Source: Candidatus Sumerlaeota bacterium (GTDB lineage Bacteria; Sumerlaeota; Sumerlaeia; JADFCT01). Taken from it: a stretch of DNA of 30,088 nt. A program made the position numbers and the translations under genes. This document shows, piece by piece, positions 2,796-22,515 of the stretch; position 1 is the first letter of the stretch, and each line of letters begins with the position of its first letter. Under the pieces are notes generated by a model. The model saw only the letters and a list, made by a program, of their open reading frames with translations. It was not told the origin of the DNA and did no database searches. Location: contig JAPLSP010000057.1 of assembly GCA_026398575.1 (NCBI GenBank), positions 1 to 30,088 of the forward strand. The letters are read 5' to 3'.

Positions 2796-3236
2796 TTATT
2801 TTTTCTGTGACCGATCCGGAAGGGCGCGGGGCTTGGGCAGTTCATCCAAGGTTGCTTCGCCTGGCTCGACCGAAACATGCTTTTCTCCTGCCAGCGCGGC
2901 GGCGGTTTTTTGAGCCGTGGCGCCGGATGTCTCATCCGCCGCAGATTGCGCAACCTCTTCCTGTCCGGCAGCTTGATTCATCGAATAGGCAAACCCCAAC
3001 AACTCGGCCACCAGCGAATAGAGCTCCGGCGGCAGCGCCTGCTCCAGGTCCAGCTTGGCCAGCAGCCCCACCATGTCCTCGTCTTCCTTGACGGGGATGC
3101 CATGCTCTTTGGCCAGCGCGATGATTTTTTCGGCGAGCCGGCCCGATCCGCGGGCGGCCAGCGTGCCCGAAACCTTGTCGCGTTCGAGGCCTTTGATGGC
3201 TACGGCTTGTTTGCGATGGGTGGTTTTGCGCGCCAT
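2796..3236 (-). CDS. Stand-alone FlhB C-terminal-domain-like protein
   Basis: A 146-aa protein whose residues about 9-90 match the cytoplasmic part of FlhB/YscU export-switch proteins that follows the NPTH cleavage site: KQAVAIKGLERDKV, RLAEKIIALAKEHGIPV, then LPPELYSLVAELLGF. It lacks FlhB's membrane half and the NPTH motif itself, like the YlqH/FlhX stand-alone paralogues. The C-terminal 50 residues are low-complexity (Ala, Glu, Pro). I chose the start at MARKTT (3236), where conservation begins, with GGAG about 10 nt upstream; an in-frame ATG at 3329 would add 31 residues unlike the family. No other flagellar or type III gene is present, so the function is unknown. Confidence 0.78.
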   Translation of the reverse strand: MARKTTHRKQAVAIKGLERDKVSGTLAARGSGRLAEKIIALAKEHGIPVKEDEDMVGLLAKLDLEQALPPELYSLVAELLGFAYSMNQAAGQEEVAQSAADETSGATAQKTAAALAGEKHVSVEPGEATLDELPKPRALPDRSQKK

Positions 3237-3462
3237 AATCCAGCTGCTCCAAATGCATTCCGAAGATTGAATTCCAAATGCATAGTTTTCGCAGCCGCCA
3301 TTGTCCTTCTCTTGAGGAAAAGCGATCAAGGGATTTACAGCGAATAAGGCGCCTCGCTGTGAGAAAAACGCTAAAAAAGTATTGCCTCTTTGGCATTATG
3401 GGTCCTAGCATGCCTTTCGTCATCATTGATAAAAGGCGCGCTGCCCCGTTCAAGGCAAGAGA

Positions 3463-3918
3463 ATGAATCTCTACGACGAGTTTTTTTCGATCATCGGTTT
3501 GTTCAATCAGCTCGGCGTGCGCTATGCCGTGGTTGGCGGGCTTGCCGTAGCGTTTCATGGCAAGCCGCGCTTCACTCGCGACATTGATATTCTTGTAGCG
3601 CCCGAGGACATCACGCTCGTGAGAGAGGCGTGTGAACGTCTCTCTTTCCATGAGCGTGCGAAGCCGTGGACCTTCAGAAATAGCAATCTAACCCTGCATC
3701 GGTTTCTGAAGATCGCCGGCGGAGACGATCTCATGGTTGACGTGCTTCTCGCCAATGCAGATGAGCATAAGCAGGTTATCGCTAACGCTATTCCTACTGA
3801 GTTCCAGGCAGGTACCGCGCGAATTGCCTCGAAGAAAGACATTATCTGGATGAAAAAGAGCCGGAATTCAGATCAAGATAAGGCAGATATTCAGGAGCTT
3901 GAAAATGACAAAGCTTGA
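3463..3918 (+). CDS. Nucleotidyltransferase of the AbiEii/MNT superfamily
   Basis: A 151-aa protein with the polymerase-beta-like nucleotidyltransferase core: VVGGLAVAFHG (residues 23-33), RDIDI with D40 and D42 as metal ligands, and VDV (D93) as the third acidic strand. The C-terminal KKSRNSDQDKADIQEL has the K..R..D..DI pattern of AbiEii-like and DUF6036-like proteins. Its end overlaps the start of a 57-aa ORF by 14 bp with a good ribosome site inside this gene, so the two form a coupled pair. The context suggests a toxin-antitoxin or tRNA/protein nucleotidylation role, but the substrate cannot be read from sequence. Confidence 0.8.
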   Translation: MNLYDEFFSIIGLFNQLGVRYAVVGGLAVAFHGKPRFTRDIDILVAPEDITLVREACERLSFHERAKPWTFRNSNLTLHRFLKIAGGDDLMVDVLLANADEHKQVIANAIPTEFQAGTARIASKKDIIWMKKSRNSDQDKADIQELENDKA

Positions 3919-5681: not shown

Positions 5682-6884
5682 ATGAACTTCGAAGCGCTTG
5701 TCCAAGCGATTGCCCACGTTCATCAACAACTGCAAGATCGTGCGGCCAAAGCCGTGAATATTAGTCTAACCGCGCGCAACTGGCTTATTGGCTGGCATAT
5801 TGTGGAGTTCGAACAGCGGGGAGAGGACCGAGCGGTATATGGACAAAGGTTGATCGAGGGGCTGTCGGAGCGCTTGCAGGAACTCACCATCCCCAGCTGC
5901 GAAGCACGGCGTCTGTACCTTTATCGAGATTTTTATGCCGCCTACCCCCACATTCGGGAGACGCTGTCTCCCGTTTTGCATTCGGCGCTTCCATCTGTTT
6001 CCCCAGGCGTGACAGAGCAAGTGGAAATACTGCGGACACTGTCCGCAGAATCTGCAGGACAATTACAACATCAACAAAATCAATCATTTGAAATTGTGCG
6101 GACACCGTCCGCACAATTGGGGGCGCTGCCGCATCTGCTCGTTGATCGCCTCTCTTATAGCCACTTCGAACTCCTGACCGCCTTGGATGCCCCCCTTAAA
6201 CGCGCCTTCTATGAAATTGAGTGTATCAAGGGCGGTTGGTCCGTGCGCGAACTCAAGCGGCAGATCGCCAGCCTCTACTTCGAGCGCTCAGGACTGTCGC
6301 TTGATAAAGAAGCCCTCTCTCGTCTCGCCAACGGGAAGATTAAAACCCAGGCGTCCGTGCTCACTTTCCGCGATCCTTATATATTCAATTTTGCTGGACT
6401 GCGTCCTTCCGAGGTTCTACCCGAGTCTGACCTCGAGGCCGCCCTACTCAATCATCTCCGGGAGTTCCTGCTCGAACTGGGCCATGGTTTCTGTTTCGAG
6501 GCTTGCCAGAAGTGGCTTGTCATCGGCGGCGAATACTTTTTCGTGGACCTTGTCTTTTATCACCGCGTCCTCAAGTGCCACGTGCTGGTCGAACTCAAAG
6601 CGGATGAATTCCGGCATGAATATCTCGGGCAGCTCAATACCTATGTAAGCTTCTATCGCGCCAATCAAATGACCGATGGCGACCAACCGCCTATCGGCTT
6701 GCTGCTTTGCACCGGGAAGAACCATGCGCTGGTTGAATACGCCCTCGCTGGCATGGACAACCGCCTATTTGTATCAAAATATCAACTTGAGCTACCCAAA
6801 TCCGAAGATCTTCAGCGCTACCTTGATAACCAGCGCAAGCAGATTGAATGCAGCCAAGCAGAAGCTCGAAATGGCTCAGGCTAA
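5682..6884 (+). CDS. DUF1016 (YhcG-type) PD-(D/E)XK nuclease-domain protein
   Basis: A 400-aa protein with the DUF1016 N-terminal helical domain (residues 1 to about 95, including ARNWLIGWHIVEFEQ and YGQRLIEGLSERL) and the C-terminal PD-(D/E)XK domain (about 165-380). The catalytic residues are visible as D289 in FVDLVFYH and E304/K306 in VELKADEF. The family occurs in defence islands and beside type I restriction genes, but its activity is little known. The linker between the domains (about 110-150) repeats the motif RT.SA because the DNA there carries two hairpins (see 6030-6118). The start has AGGAAACGAGG upstream. No partner gene is adjacent: the next gene is convergent, 27 bp away. Confidence 0.88.
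   Translation: MNFEALVQAIAHVHQQLQDRAAKAVNISLTARNWLIGWHIVEFEQRGEDRAVYGQRLIEGLSERLQELTIPSCEARRLYLYRDFYAAYPHIRETLSPVLHSALPSVSPGVTEQVEILRTLSAESAGQLQHQQNQSFEIVRTPSAQLGALPHLLVDRLSYSHFELLTALDAPLKRAFYEIECIKGGWSVRELKRQIASLYFERSGLSLDKEALSRLANGKIKTQASVLTFRDPYIFNFAGLRPSEVLPESDLEAALLNHLREFLLELGHGFCFEACQKWLVIGGEYFFVDLVFYHRVLKCHVLVELKADEFRHEYLGQLNTYVSFYRANQMTDGDQPPIGLLLCTGKNHALVEYALAGMDNRLFVSKYQLELPKSEDLQRYLDNQRKQIECSQAEARNGSG
6030..6118. repeat. Two related DNA hairpins inside the DUF1016 gene
   Basis: Bases 6030-6048 form a perfect 19-bp odd palindrome (arms CTGCGGACA and TGTCCGCAG around a single C). Bases 6092-6118 form a 12-bp perfect stem (AATTGTGCGGAC) with a 3-nt loop. Both share the core TGCGGACACyGTCCGCA, so they are copies of one short repeat inserted in frame within the linker-coding part of the gene. 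Confidence 0.85.
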
Positions 6885-10667: not shown

Positions 10668-10759
10668 TTGCGGAACGGCAATATGCGCGCATGGCGGCGC
10701 CCCATTTCCTGATCTCTGGTTGCGCATATATCCGATATTTCCCCAAAGGCGGTCTTCCG

Positions 10760-12952
10760 ATGAAACGAAGCGGTTTCTTCACGATTTTCTCTGCCTTCCT
10801 CATGCTCCTCATTCTGGTCGTCTTCACGATTCACCTCTTTCAGTTTGGCAATCTGGAGGGGCGATTGGAGAATCAGAGCAAGCAAATCCGGACCATGGGT
10901 GAAAGCGTGGACCGATTGCGAGGCGAACTCAATAAGATGACGCAGAAGATCCAGATGGGGGGCGTTTCAGCCTCCAGCAGTCTTCCTTCGCCCGGCGAAA
11001 GCCAGCCGGCGCCGGTCGAAAACACGGCGCCCCCAACCGCAACCGGGCCTTCGCCCTCGCCGGCGCCCAAGAAGCTGACCATGGCGACTCCCTCTCTCAT
11101 CGAGCCCAAGAAGATTGAACCCGCCGTGACCGCAAATGGCGCCCCGAAGGAAGAGGCAAACAGCGCGGCCGTCATGGCCGCCGCGCCGTCCAATAATCCC
11201 ACAGGCCGTAAATGGCTGCACCCGGAAGTCAGGAACTACCTTCAAAAAAACGATTACGTCATGACCGCTCCCGAGGCGCAAATGGAGGGTGTCATGATCC
11301 GCAGCCTGAACAGCGAAGTCAAAGGTTTCAATCCCTTCACGGAAAACGCCGCCGACCTCAGCTATTTCATCAACGCATACTGCAACAGTTCCATCGCCGA
11401 CCGGAACGGTTGGACCAATGCGGAGATCTGGCATGGCGACCTGGCCGAGCGCTTCGAGATCACCGACGATGGGAAGGAATTTACGATCTACCTGAAAAAG
11501 GGCATCAAATGGCAAAAGCCGGCGGGCGTGGATCTGAGCTCTGATAAATACGCCTGGCTCGACAAGCCGCATGAGATGACGGCGCGAGACTTCAAATTCA
11601 CGCTCGACGTCACGATGAATCCGCAAGTCGAGAACGGATTCGCGCGAAACTACTATGAGGATTTGGAAAGCTGGAAAGTCATTGACGACTATACCTTCGT
11701 TGTACGGTGGAAGCGAAAACTATACGGGAATATTGAGAATACGATTTCAATGGGTCCGGTTCCCGAATTCCTGTGGGCTTATGATGAGAACGGCGAGCGC
11801 TTTCCGAATAGCACGATCGGCATGAAGATCAATCAACATTGGTACGCCAATAAAGGCGTTGTGGGCACAGGTCCCTATCGCTTCGCCGATTACAAACCGG
11901 GCGAATATATCCGGCTCGAACGCAATGAAGACTACTATGATACATTGCCGGCGATAAAGGAAATCCGTTACAACATTATCCAGGATACGGATCAGGATTT
12001 CCTCAATCTGAAAGCGGGCAAATTGCGCTTCAGCGGTCTGCGGCCCAGCCGCTATCACGATGAAATCCAGCAGTATGAAAAAATGGCCAAGGATAAGTGG
12101 CCTCAAGACAGCCCTTTCCTCGATGGGCGCATTAACAATAAACGCTTTTTGGCGATGCAGTATAGCTATATCGGATGGAATGCCGACAAGCTGCTCTTCA
12201 AAGACAAGCGCATCCGCCGCGCCATGACCTTGGCCTGCAATCGGCAGGGAATGATTGACTCCATTTACTATGGCTTGGGCGTAGTGGCCGTCGGTTCGTC
12301 CTATCAATTGAGCGGCAATAATGACCCCAACATCAAGCCCTTGCCCTTCGATTTGAAGCAAGCCGCTGCGCTCCTGAAGGAAGCCGGCTGGGAAGACACC
12401 GACGGCGACGGCATCGTGGACAAAAATCTTGCCCCGGAGGATCCCAAAGCGCCTCGCTCGCCGTTTGAGTTCACACTGCTGATCTATGGGCAGTTGCCTG
12501 AATGGGAGTCTGTCGCCAATTTTTACAAGGAAGATCTTAAGAAAATTGGGGTGAAAATGAAATACGACAAGGCCGAGTGGAGCCTGATGCAAAAAAAAAT
12601 GGATGAAAAAGCCTTCGATGCATTCACGGGCGGGTGGGCATTGGCCTGGTCCGACGATCCGTATCAATTATGGCACGGCTCGCAAGCGGACATCCCGAAG
12701 GGATCCAACCGCGTGGGATTTCGCAATACGGAGGCCGACCAGATCATTGAAAAACTGCGCGTGGCGTTCGACGAGAAAGAACGCGTAGAGCTGTTTCACC
12801 GTTTCCACCGCATCCTGCACGAGGAACAACCTTACACCTTCTTCCGCGTTCCGGAAGCAGTGGTCTGCTGGTGGAATGAAGTCAAACGCGTAGAAATCCG
12901 CAAAACACCCCCGCAGACTTATTCGTTGCCCTGGTGGATGGCAACACAGTAA
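10760..12952 (+). CDS. Peptide-type ABC transporter substrate-binding protein, membrane-anchored
   Basis: A 730-aa family-5 solute-binding protein (OppA/DppA-like). It has an uncleaved N-terminal membrane helix (residues 6-27), a predicted coiled coil (about 31-66), a long Pro/Ala/Ser linker (68-150) and the binding domain (about 175-725), with WHGDLAERFEITDDGKEFT, VGTGPYRFADYKPGEYI and DKRIRRAMTLACNRQ. DTDGDGIVD resembles a Ca-binding loop. Typical relatives are about 520-600 residues with a signal peptide or lipobox; the coiled coil and linker are additional. The start at MKRSGFF (10760) was preferred over an in-frame ATG at 10691 because the hydrophobic helix begins there. It is the first gene of the operon with the two permeases downstream. 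Oligopeptides are the likely ligand class, not proven. Confidence 0.9.
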   Translation: MKRSGFFTIFSAFLMLLILVVFTIHLFQFGNLEGRLENQSKQIRTMGESVDRLRGELNKMTQKIQMGGVSASSSLPSPGESQPAPVENTAPPTATGPSPSPAPKKLTMATPSLIEPKKIEPAVTANGAPKEEANSAAVMAAAPSNNPTGRKWLHPEVRNYLQKNDYVMTAPEAQMEGVMIRSLNSEVKGFNPFTENAADLSYFINAYCNSSIADRNGWTNAEIWHGDLAERFEITDDGKEFTIYLKKGIKWQKPAGVDLSSDKYAWLDKPHEMTARDFKFTLDVTMNPQVENGFARNYYEDLESWKVIDDYTFVVRWKRKLYGNIENTISMGPVPEFLWAYDENGERFPNSTIGMKINQHWYANKGVVGTGPYRFADYKPGEYIRLERNEDYYDTLPAIKEIRYNIIQDTDQDFLNLKAGKLRFSGLRPSRYHDEIQQYEKMAKDKWPQDSPFLDGRINNKRFLAMQYSYIGWNADKLLFKDKRIRRAMTLACNRQGMIDSIYYGLGVVAVGSSYQLSGNNDPNIKPLPFDLKQAAALLKEAGWEDTDGDGIVDKNLAPEDPKAPRSPFEFTLLIYGQLPEWESVANFYKEDLKKIGVKMKYDKAEWSLMQKKMDEKAFDAFTGGWALAWSDDPYQLWHGSQADIPKGSNRVGFRNTEADQIIEKLRVAFDEKERVELFHRFHRILHEEQPYTFFRVPEAVVCWWNEVKRVEIRKTPPQTYSLPWWMATQ

Positions 12953-13072: not shown

Positions 13073-14521
13073 ATGAAGACATACATCCTCAAGCGCCTTT
13101 TGCTCATGATTCCGACGTTCCTCGGAATCACGTTGATCGTCTTTGTGGTGCTGAATTTCGCTCCCGGCCATCCGGGGGGAAGCAAAATGAACCAGGATCT
13201 GGCCGCCAACATGCGGGGTGAAAAAACGCAGGAATCGTTTCGTATCTTCCGCGAGCAGTTCAACCTGGACAAGCCCGTCCTCTTCAACACGCTCTTCTGG
13301 CTTTCGGAAAAAACCGTCGCGAAAAATCTCCAGATCATCGCGGGCGTCACGACGGCCACCGCCGCGCAGAAAATCCGCGCGCAGGAGGGCATGGAAGATT
13401 ACGGGCAATATGCGGTCCCGCATTTGGCCCATATCATGGAAACCGCGCAAAATCCGCGTCTGCGCGACGTGTCAGTATATTTCATGAGTTTGAACGCGCG
13501 CCGGCCCCTGATTGATCCCTTCAACAAGAACCTGAGCGAAGCCAGGCGCAAGATGAACACGGAAATTGACATCGAAAACGCGTTGTTCCGCGAGATGCGC
13601 TACCCGCTGGAAGCCCCCGAAGCGCAAAAGCAAAAAGTGATCGCGCAATGGAAAACCTGGTATCAGGGGCACAAGAATCGCTGGGAATACAGCGGGATGG
13701 ACAAGTTTCGGATCTTTTTTTTCGAAACGCGCTTTGCCTGCTACATGGGCAATCTGATGCGGCTGGATTTCGGCGTCTCGCTCGTGACGAAAGAACCCGT
13801 GCTCAAAACACTGGTTTATAAACTGCGCTACTCCATTCCCCTGTCCGTTGGCTCGCTGATACTCGCATATCTGATCTCGATTCCCATCGGCATCTTTTCG
13901 GCGGCGCGCAAGGATTCCACCGTGGATCAGAGCGTCACCATTTTCCTTTTCATCCTGTATTCGCTGCCCAGTTTCTTTGTCGCCACGGTGCTGCTTTATT
14001 TCTTCTCCAAAGGATCGGACTACAAGTGGCTGCAATGGTTCCCCATCGGGGGCTGGCGCTCGCCGGAGTATGACACAATGACCACGCTGGAGCGTATCGG
14101 AGACATCGGCTGGCACATGGTTCTGCCCGTCATCTGCATGACGTATGGGTCGCTGGCATATCTCAGCCGCTATATGCGCGCCGGACTCCTGGATGTCATC
14201 CGTTCCGATTATATCCGCACGGCGCGCGCCAAGGGATTGACGGAAAAGACGGTGATCTTGAAGCACGCGCTGCGCAACGGCCTGATTCCGATCCTGACGA
14301 TCCTGGCCGGCTTGCTCCCCGCGCTGCTCGGCGGTTCGATCATCATCGAATATATCTTCGGGATTCCGGGCATGGGGCAATGGCTGATCGAATCCATTTA
14401 TAACCGCGACTACAACGTGATCATGGCCGAACAGCTCGTCTCGACGATCCTGGTGCTGCTGGGCATCCTGCTGTCGGATCTGAGCTACGCGCTGGTGGAT
14501 CCGCGGATTACTTATGATTAA
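13073..14521 (+). CDS. OppB/DppB-family ABC permease with enlarged periplasmic insertion
   Basis: A 482-aa inner-membrane permease. The first TM helix (residues about 9-30, LLLMIPTFLGITLIVFVV) is typical of OppB. LDFGVSL (231-237) and the following helices match the family core. The EAA loop is seen as YIRTARAKGLTEKTVILKHA (380-399), and the end VDPRITYD is characteristic. OppB proteins are usually about 305-340 residues; the extra 130-150 residues lie between TM1 and LDFGVSL (about 35-220). Part of that insert, QYAVPHLAHIMETA then PRLRDVSVYFMSLNARR, looks like a HEAT-type helical repeat. The ATG at 13073 (MKTYILKR) was chosen from family alignment. It works with the binding protein upstream and the OppC-like permease downstream. 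Confidence 0.9.
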   Translation: MKTYILKRLLLMIPTFLGITLIVFVVLNFAPGHPGGSKMNQDLAANMRGEKTQESFRIFREQFNLDKPVLFNTLFWLSEKTVAKNLQIIAGVTTATAAQKIRAQEGMEDYGQYAVPHLAHIMETAQNPRLRDVSVYFMSLNARRPLIDPFNKNLSEARRKMNTEIDIENALFREMRYPLEAPEAQKQKVIAQWKTWYQGHKNRWEYSGMDKFRIFFFETRFACYMGNLMRLDFGVSLVTKEPVLKTLVYKLRYSIPLSVGSLILAYLISIPIGIFSAARKDSTVDQSVTIFLFILYSLPSFFVATVLLYFFSKGSDYKWLQWFPIGGWRSPEYDTMTTLERIGDIGWHMVLPVICMTYGSLAYLSRYMRAGLLDVIRSDYIRTARAKGLTEKTVILKHALRNGLIPILTILAGLLPALLGGSIIIEYIFGIPGMGQWLIESIYNRDYNVIMAEQLVSTILVLLGILLSDLSYALVDPRITYD

Positions 14522-14605
14522 GAGATACAATCAATTCTTTGATGCGGGTTAATATTTCATTGCTGATGCTGGGCGAGATTACAACCATCAGAAGGAGAAA
14601 TCAAA

Positions 14606-15001
14606 ATGCCGAAAGCGATAAACTGGGAAGAGAAAAAGCAATCCTGGATTGCCCAAGTGAAGGAATTATGCGCGACCATCGAAAAGTGGGCGAAACAAAA
14701 AAGATGGTTTGTGGATGAGCAGGAAAAGGTCATCGAGGAGCCACATTTGGGAGAGTACACAGTTCCGGTGCTCTATATTCAAACGCCTCAGGGGCGCTTC
14801 TTTGTTGAGCCCATGGCGCGGGAGATCTTAGGAGCGGAAGGACGTGTGGACATCACGGTGTTTCCAACTTATGTGCGTTTTTTGCTAGTGAGATCGAAAA
14901 ATCAATGGGTCATCAATACTGATTCGAGAGTGGAATGGCCGGAACCGTGGTCACAGGAAGCGTTCTATAACATTGTTAAGGCAATGGCTGCCGCTGCATG
15001 A
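14606..15001 (+). CDS. Unknown 131-aa protein, first gene of a coupled cassette
   Basis: No family recognised. The N-terminal 40 residues look helical and charged (WEEKKQSWIAQVKELCATIE); the rest alternates short strands and aromatic residues (LGEYTVPVLYIQTPQG, VDITVFPTYVRFLLVR, WVINTDSRVEWPEPW). No signal peptide or membrane segment is seen. AGAAGGAG lies about 7 nt before the ATG, a strong ribosome site. Its stop overlaps the next start as ATGA, so the two are translated as a pair. The pair sits between oppB and oppC of the importer operon, to which it has no obvious relation. A toxin-antitoxin role is inferred only from the partner. Confidence 0.75.
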   Translation: MPKAINWEEKKQSWIAQVKELCATIEKWAKQKRWFVDEQEKVIEEPHLGEYTVPVLYIQTPQGRFFVEPMAREILGAEGRVDITVFPTYVRFLLVRSKNQWVINTDSRVEWPEPWSQEAFYNIVKAMAAAA

Positions 15002-15441
15002 ACCCTAAGCAAAAATTTGAGCGCATCATCGCTTGCGAGCAAATGTGCAATGCCGGCATGGTCGCTACAGCGTACTACTTTAGCCTGTGCCAAACACAGC
15101 CAGAACTGCTTGATAAATCACTATGTCGGATAAAGGATTTTCAGGATTGTCATCAAGATTTGGAAACCACTTATCTTATCAGAATTTTTGCTGAATTTGA
15201 AGCGACGCTTCGCGACTATTGGGAAAATGCTTGTTCTCGACAAAAGAGACCCATCATGGAAATGCTTATGAACAGGATTATCTCCCGTTGTCAAGTTTGG
15301 CCTGCCGTGGCTGAAAAAGCGCACATGGTTCGTGAATACCGGAACTCCTTGATGCATGGCGGCGCGGCAGCCCCAGTGACATTATCCGAAGCAAGGTCCT
15401 ACCTTTGCCAGTTTCTATCCCATTTGCCTTATACATGGTAA
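14998..15441 (+). CDS. HEPN-like protein with RX4H motif, partner of the 131-aa protein
   Basis: A 147-aa predicted all-helical protein. The segment YLIRIFAEFEATLRDYW (59-75) and later VREYRNSLMHGG (111-122) look like the two halves of a HEPN fold; R115 and H120 form the RX4H ribonuclease motif, best matching RiboL-PSP/MAE_28990-type HEPN proteins. HEPN RNases with an intact motif are usually toxins or defence effectors. It starts inside the stop codon of the previous gene (ATGA overlap) and ends 24 bp before oppC, so it is embedded in the importer operon. Base composition is lower in G+C than the flanking permeases, which suggests acquisition. Six Cys residues are present. Confidence 0.65.
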   Translation: MNPKQKFERIIACEQMCNAGMVATAYYFSLCQTQPELLDKSLCRIKDFQDCHQDLETTYLIRIFAEFEATLRDYWENACSRQKRPIMEMLMNRIISRCQVWPAVAEKAHMVREYRNSLMHGGAAAPVTLSEARSYLCQFLSHLPYTW

Positions 15442-15465
15442 AGCAAATCCTATCGCGGAATCTTC

Positions 15466-16761
15466 ATGAAAAAATCATACGAGCCAAATAATTCAACGGG
15501 TGATTCCTCTGCGGCCGGTCGCGCGCTGCAGGCTGAGCAGCATGCCGCTTCGCTGCGCGTATCGTATTGGGCGATCGTCTGGGGCCAGTTCCGCAAGAAA
15601 CGGATCGCGGTCTTTGGGATGTGGTGCGTGATCGCGCTGTTTCTTCTGGCTATTTATGCCCCGCTGATATGCCTGGACAAGCCATTCTTTTATAAGGACC
15701 ACACGGGGCTTTCATTCCCGCTCTTCAAACATCTCTTCAACCGCCTGTTCTTTGAAAACTCCGTGGATGTTTTTTTCAATCTGATTCTGACGCTTTCGCC
15801 GTTGTACATCGCGCTCTATTATATAGGCTGCCGCGTTTTGCGCAACTCCCGGCGCTGGGGCCGCGGGCATATCGTCGGATTCCTTGTCGCGGCGCAGTTC
15901 CTGATTTTCTTCGCGGTCTCTCCGCAGCGGATTTTGGGATGGGCGAATCCGCTGTATTCTTCGTCGGCGAGCAGGAACTACGCCGAACCGGCGCCGAATC
16001 AAAGCACATCGTCCACGGCGCTTTGCCTCTTTCCGATCTATCGCCATAACTACAGCAACACCGATCCCAAGCAAAGCCTCAACGCCCCCAGCTGGACGCA
16101 TTGGTTCGGCACGGACAAGGAAGGGCGCGATGTCTTGGCGCGCATTCTCTATGGCACGCGCATTTCGCTGACAATCGGCGTCGTGGCGGTTTCGATCTAC
16201 GTCGCCATCGGCATTTTCCTCGGCGCGCTGGCCGGATATTTCGGCGGTTGGATTGACATGCTGATTTCGCGCCTGATCGAGGTGATGATCTGCTTCCCGA
16301 CGTTCTTCCTGATCCTGACGCTGGCGGCGTTCGTCGAGGAGCGCTCGATTTTTCACGTCATGGTGATCATCGGCATAACCAGCTGGCCGGGCGTGGCGCG
16401 GCTGGTGCGGGCCGAGTTTCTCAAACAGCGCAATCTCGAATATTCGCAGGCGGCGCTGGCGTTGGGGATTTCGCGTCCGCGGATCATCTTCCGGCATATC
16501 CTGCCGAACGCGCTGGCGCCGGTGCTGGTCGCGGCTACGTTCGGCGTCGCGTCGGCGATCCTGACCGAATCGGCCCTGTCATTCCTGGGATTGGGCGACG
16601 TCTCGGCGCCGAGCTGGGGCGCGCTGCTCAACGCCGGGCGGCTGGATCATAAACTCTGGCTGGTCCTGTTCCCTGGGTTCCCGATCTTTTTTGTGGTCAG
16701 CATCTTCAACCTCGTAGGCGAAGGCCTGCGCGACGCCCTGGATCCAAAGCTTAGAATATAA
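15466..16761 (+). CDS. OppC/DppC-family ABC permease with extra membrane segments
   Basis: A 431-aa inner-membrane permease. The hallmark HWFGTDKEGRDVLARILYGT is at 212-231, followed by the five-helix core and an EAA loop (YSQAALALGISRPRIIFRHI, about 325-344); the end EGLRDALDPKLR is typical. OppC proteins are usually about 280-310 residues. Here about 110 extra residues lie between TM1 (about 48-68) and the hallmark motif and include two further hydrophobic segments (about 103-122 and 137-152). With the OppB-like protein it forms the channel of the importer. The cognate OppD/OppF ATPases are not in the window. Confidence 0.92.
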   Translation: MKKSYEPNNSTGDSSAAGRALQAEQHAASLRVSYWAIVWGQFRKKRIAVFGMWCVIALFLLAIYAPLICLDKPFFYKDHTGLSFPLFKHLFNRLFFENSVDVFFNLILTLSPLYIALYYIGCRVLRNSRRWGRGHIVGFLVAAQFLIFFAVSPQRILGWANPLYSSSASRNYAEPAPNQSTSSTALCLFPIYRHNYSNTDPKQSLNAPSWTHWFGTDKEGRDVLARILYGTRISLTIGVVAVSIYVAIGIFLGALAGYFGGWIDMLISRLIEVMICFPTFFLILTLAAFVEERSIFHVMVIIGITSWPGVARLVRAEFLKQRNLEYSQAALALGISRPRIIFRHILPNALAPVLVAATFGVASAILTESALSFLGLGDVSAPSWGALLNAGRLDHKLWLVLFPGFPIFFVVSIFNLVGEGLRDALDPKLRI

Positions 16762-20604: not shown

Positions 20605-22515
20605 CTAAAAATTCCTGAGCGGCGCGCGCGATTCGCGCTTGCGGCTTTGCGCCTTCAGAGGCGCGCCCGATTGATTGCGCCGGACCAGCTCGACGGCGCC
20701 CGCCAGCGCGTCCGGGCCATCGTCGTAGCGGCCGGGATAGCCTTCGAGCTGCTGGAGAAAAGTCTCGCCCAGGCCGCGGGCAAATCGCAGGATTCCATTT
20801 TCGATGAGGGATTCCAGCGAACGGATACGCGCATCCTTCGAAGCGCGGTTCGAGACGGGTTCGACCGCCACCTGGCAGGGGCGTTTCCCGGCGCGGCGCC
20901 GGGCGCGCTCATCTTCGATCGGGATCATCATCAATTCCTGGAAGCAGTTGCCTTCCACGCCGATGACTCGATGCCCCCAGCGCTCGGCCAGATCGAAGAC
21001 CCATTGCGCCTGCTGGCTGGGGCGTGCCCGCTCGACCCGCGCGTCGAGCACATAGATGAAGCCATGCGCGTCGGCTCCCACTGTCACGAGGGCGGCGTAG
21101 TCTCCTCCCCGCGTTCGCCCGCTCGAAGCGGACTTGCCCATCGCCGCATCCAGAAAGCCCGCCACGGTCAGCTCAGCCAATTCAACTCGCTCGCCGTCGC
21201 CTCCGGTTCCTTTGCTTCCTGTGCTCCGATCCTCGGCGGACGGCGACGTCTCCAAGACAAGGGCGTCGCGCTCCAGGCGGAAATGCCGCGCGCGGGCGGG
21301 ATCGAAAATCGCCACGTCCGCCAGTGAAGGATCGTTCTGCTTTTCCTGGAAAAACGCGCGCCGGCCCTGCGTGGCCAGCTGGATCATCAATTTGTAGTAG
21401 GTTTCTTTTTCGGGCCAAAGCGCCCGCGCGCCCTCCAGCATCTCGCGCTTGTGCTCATAAAAAAACGTTTGGGCCGTCTTGATGCGCGCGGGATCGCGCA
21501 GATTCGAGTAGAGCTCGCGCCAGCGTTCCCACAGGTCCGCGCGCTTGGCAAAAGCCCGCACGGCGCGGAAGCGGGCTGTCTTGAAATCAGGCCGCTTCAG
21601 CAGCGACGCCAGCAGGCTTTGCGGATGCAGCAGCGTTCCGACGATGGTCAGGTTCGTGTACCCGTTGCCAAGATGCTCGATGACTTCGCTGAACCAGGCG
21701 GCGAGTTTTTCGCGCTGTTCCCCAGATTCGACGGATTCGGAGTCCTCGACGTCGTCCAGGATGACCAGCGTCGGGCGGTATCCTTTGTGCACGAGTCCGC
21801 GAACTTCGCTTCCGGCCGAATAGGCCTCGATCCGAGTGTCGAAAGCCTCGATGACGGTGGACGAAAATTTGGCGTCCTTGCTCTCGGCTGCCCCAAAGAC
21901 GCGGTGCAGCCGGGCATTTCTTTGCAGCTGATAGCCAATGGCTTCCAGCTTCTGCTGGCTCTGTTTGAGCGTGGCCGACAGGATTACGATGTACTTTTCG
22001 CGTTGATAGAGGAGGCTGTGGATCGGCAGAATGAGCGATTGAAGCGTGGACTTGGCGTGTCCGCGCGGCGCCGCCAGCGCCAGACGCCGCCCTTCGCGCA
22101 GCGGCGGCTTCATCCCTGCCCGGCGGTTGTACTCCCGGAATACCCAGCGGTGAAACACCGAGGGCGCCAGGCGGCAATACTCATGAAAAAACTCGCGCGC
22201 GAAGCGGGCGACGTCGCGCTCGCAGGCCTCACGGAGCGCCTTTTCCGCCTCGGTTCGCGAGGCTTCCGCCGCGGCCAGATCCGGCGATTGCTTGAGCGCG
22301 CGAATCTTGTGCCATTCCGTAAAGTAGCTTTCGCGTCCCTCCTGAAGGCGCCGCTGCGTCATCGAGAAATCCTTGATGGCTTCATAGGCTTCTTTTTCGT
22401 TTTCTGCATCCCGCTCGATGACAGGCATGTAGCGCATTAAGACGCACTCTTCAAAATCAAGCATCTGATCATGGCGATCTAAATAGCGGTCGAATTGTTC
22501 CAGATTCTCCGGCAA
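20605..22515 (-). CDS. Phage terminase large subunit-like protein
   Basis: A 636-aa TerL-type protein. The ATPase domain has Walker A APRGHAKST (149-157), Walker B TLVILDDVED (249-258) and coupling residues near IVGTLLH (291-297). The nuclease domain is RNase H-like with D456 (FLDAAMG), E521 (GVEGN) and D602 (GPDALAG). An N-terminal helical, charged region of about 110 residues precedes it. TerL packages phage DNA into proheads. The start is a TTG at 22515 behind AAAGGAG and AGGA. No portal, capsid or tail gene is present, so this is a prophage remnant or a domesticated terminase. The frame is intact, with no decay. Confidence 0.88.
   Translation of the reverse strand: MPENLEQFDRYLDRHDQMLDFEECVLMRYMPVIERDAENEKEAYEAIKDFSMTQRRLQEGRESYFTEWHKIRALKQSPDLAAAEASRTEAEKALREACERDVARFAREFFHEYCRLAPSVFHRWVFREYNRRAGMKPPLREGRRLALAAPRGHAKSTLQSLILPIHSLLYQREKYIVILSATLKQSQQKLEAIGYQLQRNARLHRVFGAAESKDAKFSSTVIEAFDTRIEAYSAGSEVRGLVHKGYRPTLVILDDVEDSESVESGEQREKLAAWFSEVIEHLGNGYTNLTIVGTLLHPQSLLASLLKRPDFKTARFRAVRAFAKRADLWERWRELYSNLRDPARIKTAQTFFYEHKREMLEGARALWPEKETYYKLMIQLATQGRRAFFQEKQNDPSLADVAIFDPARARHFRLERDALVLETSPSAEDRSTGSKGTGGDGERVELAELTVAGFLDAAMGKSASSGRTRGGDYAALVTVGADAHGFIYVLDARVERARPSQQAQWVFDLAERWGHRVIGVEGNCFQELMMIPIEDERARRRAGKRPCQVAVEPVSNRASKDARIRSLESLIENGILRFARGLGETFLQQLEGYPGRYDDGPDALAGAVELVRRNQSGAPLKAQSRKRESRAPLRNF

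Follow-up and report, generated by a model that had tools for sequence, protein, structure and literature searches.

The stretch of DNA analyzed here (the window, 30,088 nucleotides of a contig assigned to a Candidatus Sumerlaeota bacterium) carries, between the genes of an oppB-type and an oppC-type permease, two overlapping open reading frames (ORFs), A and H, which make up a real, recurrent two-gene HEPN module. That the two genes form a single toxin-antitoxin-like RNase cassette is probable, and the function we infer for the pair is most likely that of a toxin-antitoxin pair. A reading of the sequence alone (the sequence-only reading) had described the ATGA overlap, an intact RX4H motif (R115-H120) in H, and for A a strong ribosome-binding site and no recognized family, and each of these features was recovered. 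The central features are:

14606..15001, + strand: ORF A, 131 amino acids, predicted to adopt a frataxin-like fold; proposed antitoxin that restrains H
14998..15441, + strand: ORF H, 147 amino acids, HEPN protein (RNSLMH, residues 115-120) and proposed toxin with RNase activity
14998..15001, + strand: ATGA overlap of the H start codon (ATG, 14998-15000) and the A stop codon (TGA, 14999-15001), suggesting translational coupling
14593..14597, + strand: AGGAG, ribosome-site-like as judged from sequence, 8 nucleotides 5' of the A start codon (ATG)

Linkage and conservation of A and H

Direct protein searches retrieved 7 A and 12 H proteins, the window's own counted in each set. Scanning named genomes with the H alignment yielded 17 loci, all titled Planctomycetota or groups within, and an A relative was located immediately 5' of H in 16 of them, the exception (L017) starting at a contig end. 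When both profiles were applied to 111 of 238 loci (short duplicate loci and the trpB, leuC, and opp comparison loci were left out, and some places still occur twice), H was found downstream of 101 of 110 A matches and A upstream of 104 of 106 H matches. The two H genes lacking A (L017 and L065) lie 30 and 167 nucleotides from contig ends, and in the H-led surveys every H located away from a contig end came with an A. Nine A genes lacked H, which is explained in part by contig ends (L164, L193), by reduction to remnants (L170, L171), and by degeneration (L190); in L165, the ORF after A has HEPN length and reads RHWLAQ. The A genes of L167, L168, and L176 have no recognizable H and are exceptions to the rule. 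The sequence-only reading had named A homologs without a HEPN partner, a restriction to opp operons, and non-conserved R115/H120 as outcomes that would speak against a mobile two-gene system, and none of them holds as a rule.

De-duplication left 91 unique pairs, to which the window pair does not belong. H starts before the end of A in 76 of these, within 20 nucleotides in 9, and further away in 4, and no start was found in 2. The arrangement in the window is beyond chance, because homologs of both genes retain the same order and, in 76 of the 91 unique pairs, overlap as well. With a coupled two-gene operon in which the partner comes first, it has the layout of type II toxin-antitoxin systems. 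The motif R[NHD]xxxH is unbroken in 84 of the 91 pairs; it is interrupted by a frameshift in L066, H is cut or damaged before or at the motif in L061, L194, L201, L200, and L202, and L233 reads RYHNWLSH. The distances among A proteins correlate with those among H proteins (r = 0.70 for 55 pairs; largest value in 500 shuffles 0.35), a pattern that, at the level of sequence distances, shows joint inheritance and by itself is not proof of contact between A and H.

Protein families, predicted folds, and known systems

The motif of ORF H, R115-N-S-L-M-H120, agrees with the Rx4-6H catalytic motif of the HEPN superfamily, and the predicted structure is an all-helical HEPN bundle whose fold is nearest to HepT structures. 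The best Pfam matches, DUF7062 (E 0.047) and DUF4145 (E 0.079), were both under the cut-off, NCBIfam returned nothing at E ≤ 10 for either A or H, and PADLOC gave H a single weak match, which falls on the HEPN portion of a CARF-HEPN model (E 6.6e-4, 16.9 bits). Among the 12 H proteins, Pfam detected a weak likeness to RiboL-PSP-HEPN (PF18735; 3 proteins), Swt1-like HEPN (PF18731; 1 protein), and DUF4145 (3 proteins), with best E-values of 0.0085 to 0.056; in contrast to these families, H of the window is a single short domain without a fused partner domain.

Window A reached no Pfam cut-off (best match PrgU, E 0.04) and had no PADLOC match; PrgU and the other weak Pfam matches were dropped, being below the cut-off and seen in one or two members. 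The predicted fold of A is alpha-beta-alpha and frataxin-like. In contrast to frataxin/CyaY, neither the window protein nor its relatives matched the frataxin family in Pfam, an hhalign comparison with E. coli CyaY gave an E-value of 0.2, and the net charge of helix 1 plus strand 1 averages -1.0 (range -4 to 1, n = 52) vs. -10 for the first 35 amino acids of CyaY. Binding of iron in the manner of frataxin was rejected because this acidic surface is missing. Of 123 A proteins that were typed, 32 possess a P0022-like N-terminal extension (beta type) and 12 a P0024-like one (helical type; both type names reflect our reading of the sequences), and 79, like window A, have neither. The 398-amino acid protein P0074 was rejected as an A-H fusion, since nothing in it matches HEPN and the additional residues lie 5' of A. 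A helical-type extension was also observed joined to an unrelated C-terminal part; the neighboring gene encodes a different small protein without Pfam match (L047:1195-1812 and 675-1181, - strand), and the two are perhaps a sister two-gene system.

One of the closest known systems is HepT/MntA (HEPN/MNT), which likewise consists of two genes with the partner 5' and a small RX4H HEPN protein second, whose fold is the closest to H. According to the accessible part of the source (PMC7641770), this system is defined by the motifs RX4HXY, whose tyrosine accepts AMP, and GSX10DXD. No tyrosine was found two positions after the histidine in any of 86 H motifs, that of the window included, so that AMPylation at this residue cannot restrain H. 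A differs from MntA in having no match to NTP_transf_2, and even a loosened GSX10DXD-like pattern, G[ST]x(7-13)DxD, occurs in just 4 of 92 A proteins and is not conserved. Judged by these motifs, A-H is outside the HEPN/MNT family. The dyad of the HEPN protein MAE_18760 and a ParA/Soj ATPase, as presented in the accessible portion of PMC3710099, shares the two-gene arrangement with the partner 5', but A has another predicted fold, and no ATPase family appeared among the Pfam matches of 21 A relatives (A3 set) at E ≤ 1. A search of titles and the starts of abstracts, with subscription journals mostly outside its reach, retrieved no description of the A-H pair or the A partner family and no paper combining "frataxin-like fold" with "toxin".

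Genomic contexts, insertion, and distribution

The sequence-only reading had placed the pair exactly between oppB and oppC, and Pfam confirmed both permeases and the binding protein of the importer:

13073..14521, + strand: oppB-type permease, flanking (BPD_transp_1, E 2.7e-39)
15466..16761, + strand: oppC-type permease, flanking (BPD_transp_1 and OppC_N)
10691..12952, + strand: substrate-binding protein of the same importer, further upstream (SBP_bac_5)

The distance from the oppB stop codon to A is 84 nucleotides and that from the H stop codon to oppC is 24 nucleotides. As the sequence-only reading had proposed for a mobile two-gene system, the neighborhood survey found the pair, with its RX4H motif conserved, in unrelated contexts and not tied to opp operons. 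Labeled by the Pfam names of the neighboring genes, these contexts are PALP (trpB) and Trp_syntA in L066, Aconitase (leuC) and Aconitase_C (leuD) in L064, PSCyt/PSD1 (DUF1553) and DUF1501 in L015, a guanido phosphotransferase (mcsB-like) and VanZ in L009, Fe-ADH and an M20 peptidase in L003, and an alpha/beta hydrolase and PAD_porph in L051; the gene 5' of the pair is SmpB in L007 and DeoC in L055. A C-terminal A remnant between the genes of a fabG-like reductase and an acyl carrier protein (L171:1501-1677, + strand) is apparently the scar of a past insertion in a fatty-acid operon.

Comparison with relatives lacking the insert showed mostly short gaps at the corresponding places. Thirty trpB loci were fetched, of which one is the L066 site itself (gap 1072 nucleotides) and 5 have no trpA in the locus; the trpB-trpA gap measures 99-298 nucleotides in 23 of the other 24. 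The 30 leuC loci comprise the L064 site (1208 nucleotides), 10 loci without leuD, and 19 others, 13 of which have a leuC-leuD gap of 58-144 nucleotides. None of 30 opp loci contained A or H, the best (L127) having an OppB 51% identical and a gap of 239 nucleotides. The guanine-plus-cytosine (GC) content of the window pair is 47.1% vs. 58.1% in its flanks, and the pair is lower in GC than its flanks in 33 of 37 loci (exceptions L009, L058, L059, and L060). The low GC content together with the relatives lacking the insert supports insertion, one half of the recent insertion suggested by the sequence-only reading; recency was not borne out. Seven wide gaps carry other small ORFs (leuC-leuD in L099, with Uma2, and in L105, L106, L121, L124, and L126; trpB-trpA in L071), and the leuCD and trpBA gaps look like common insertion sites in several Planctomycetota.

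The position within an operon could also mean that the pair controls the transcript housing it, for which the HEPN protein MtlR of the mannitol operon is a precedent (PMC3710099, accessible part). This role as an operon regulator is highly improbable, as the operons housing relatives of the pair are unrelated to one another, other relatives lie outside operons (flanking on both sides is absent in 15 of 30), and the host operons have close relatives that do without the pair.

The A profile from the H-led loci collected 806 proteins at E 1e-3 among the 7995 candidates scored, and none of the 120 matches listed has a precomputed Pfam domain. Four of those listed bear the organism names Gemmataceae, Planctomycetaceae, Candidatus Xenobia, and Candidatus Nealsonbacteria, the latter two suggesting that the family may reach beyond the Planctomycetota. 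A pattern scan of genome contigs for A yielded zero matches because the alignment behind it was narrow (7 close sequences); broader profiles showed the family to be common. Counts per taxon all take in the center genome, which was picked for having the pair, and used E limits of 1e-5 or 1e-8; low counts are lower bounds, because fewer candidates were scored per genome in the larger genome sets. In the order of G694 (an Isosphaeraceae locus), 24 of 45 genomes have A; the figures for A are 12 of 170 in the order of G003 and 10 of 246 in that of G002 (a Planctomycetaceae-titled locus), where H was found in 8 of 246. H occurs in 26 of 102 genomes in the order of G693 (a Gemmataceae locus), and in the phylum of G001 the counts are 2 of 294 for H and 2 of 99 for A. 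The pair is frequent in some planctomycete bacteria, and some genomes contain several copies, with 7 A matches in G301 and 6 in G737. In G670, similar but non-identical copies (L059 and L060) occupy the extreme ends of two contigs (C271 and C270), as if repeated copies had broken the assembly.

This patchy spread (2 of 99 to 24 of 45 genomes) would also suit a phage-defense (abortive infection) module, in which A is a sensor that holds the effector H and frees it upon infection, arrest by plain loss of A not being its use. The interchangeable N-terminal extensions (32 and 12 of 123) are what one would expect of a sensor, and Rx4-6H HEPN RNases act in several abortive infection systems as described in the accessible part of PMC3710099. 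We nevertheless hold this explanation to be doubtful: the immediate neighbors checked are mostly metabolic or housekeeping genes and not defense islands, tblastn of A and H against phage and plasmid records gave no match, exact-pattern scans of viral contigs for A and H confirmed nothing, and PADLOC did not recognize A.

Elsewhere in the window, a second, unrelated HEPN pair (325-1004, - strand) combines a HEPN gene (PF05168, E 5.4e-14), which comes first, with a nucleotidyltransferase gene (PF01909, E 9.3e-12), the two overlapping by 22 nucleotides. A DUF6036 nucleotidyltransferase-like gene (3463-3918, + strand) and a YhcG/DUF1016 PDDEXK nuclease gene (5682-6884, + strand) lie some 8-11 kb 5' of A-H. 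A possibly phage-derived gene approximately 4 kb past oppC (20605-22515, - strand) encodes a terminase RNaseH-like domain (PF17289), and a short protein (2796-3329, - strand) matches just the C-terminal part of FlhB/YscU (PF01312, profile positions 262-333 of 335). Rfam had no matches in 14300-15700.

Decay of H, proposed mechanism, and meaning

The pattern of decay bears on which of the two proteins would be the toxin. H is damaged beside a read-through A in seven loci, by a premature stop past the motif (L053), frameshifts (L056, L059, L066, and L238), an internal deletion (L058), or truncation (L194). A damaged A beside H was seen just in L007, whose contig has a run of N, and both genes are incomplete in L190, L192, and L201. 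Ten cases (the seven damaged H genes and the three A genes without H) vs. one fit A as the protective partner, in a tally sorted by eye from draft genomes, with A touching a contig end in L059 and L194. It leaves out most of the 15 rows in which automatic scoring called both genes "broken", these being divergent members with partial profile cover; the A genes of L213 and L216 have intact reading frames.

The damage to several H genes, and the other small genes housed in leuC-leuD and trpB-trpA gaps, might be taken to mean that A-H is a passenger, i.e., a mobile or duplicated pair that hardly affects its host and is tolerated between operon genes in the way that Uma2 and other small genes are. 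This seems very unlikely, because the damage is uneven and falls on H, and because the RX4H motif, the gene order, and the overlap are kept across strongly diverged members (A identity down to 17-30%), which argues for selection on both proteins.

HEPN proteins with Rx4-6H are described in the accessible part of PMC3710099 as RNases of toxin-antitoxin and abortive infection systems, often with the antitoxin gene 5'. In the toxin-antitoxin-like mechanism proposed here, A would be made first, with translation of H coupled to it, and H would be a metal-independent HEPN endoRNase that acts as a dimer through RX4H. As the acceptor tyrosine is absent and the MNT motif unconserved, restraint of H must differ from that in HepT/MntA. 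The simplest proposal is that A binds H directly and would keep it inactive in this way, not by nucleotidyl transfer of the MntA type. Loss, titration, or alteration of A would set H free, and free H would cut host RNA and stop growth. The N-terminal extensions, carried by about a third of the typed A proteins, may tune this trigger, the window copy being a minimal form. The cassette would be transcribed with the operon of its landing, here opp, and there is probably no classical type II self-regulation because A has no recognized DNA-binding part (no DNA-binding family occurred among its Pfam matches).

That importer transcription drives the module had been considered in the sequence-only reading, and this suggestion fared unevenly. 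A pattern scan of 14300-15700, with signals that may not be those of the host, found no sigma-70-like promoter (0 vs. 1.9 in shuffles), in agreement with read-through from opp. By the same type of scan, A (at 14784) and H (at 15391) each contain a + strand hairpin resembling a terminator, which counts against read-through. Siting inside an operon is not special to the pair: co-directional neighbors within 300 nucleotides on both sides were found for 15 of 30 pairs vs. 48 of 155 other genes (Fisher p = 0.058; based on our own gene calls), a difference that is suggestive only, and a preference of the pair for operons was not accepted.

A further-reaching interpretation, which we regard as unlikely, is that A-H represents a new class of promoterless, operon-embedded addiction cassettes that settle between the genes of essential operons (trpBA, leuCD, opp, fatty-acid genes) and persist because the labile frataxin-fold partner disappears, and the RNase is freed, once the host transcript is lost or shut off; the cell would then pay for deleting or silencing the host operon. 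If the toxin-antitoxin-like function is correct, a HEPN RNase would be restrained without a nucleotidyltransferase, on a fold best known from iron-sulfur biology. With A in more than half of the genomes of one order, the pair is common enough for testing in planctomycetes, and its repeated siting in biosynthetic operons offers a clean case for asking how an operon can take up a small two-gene cassette and stay intact.
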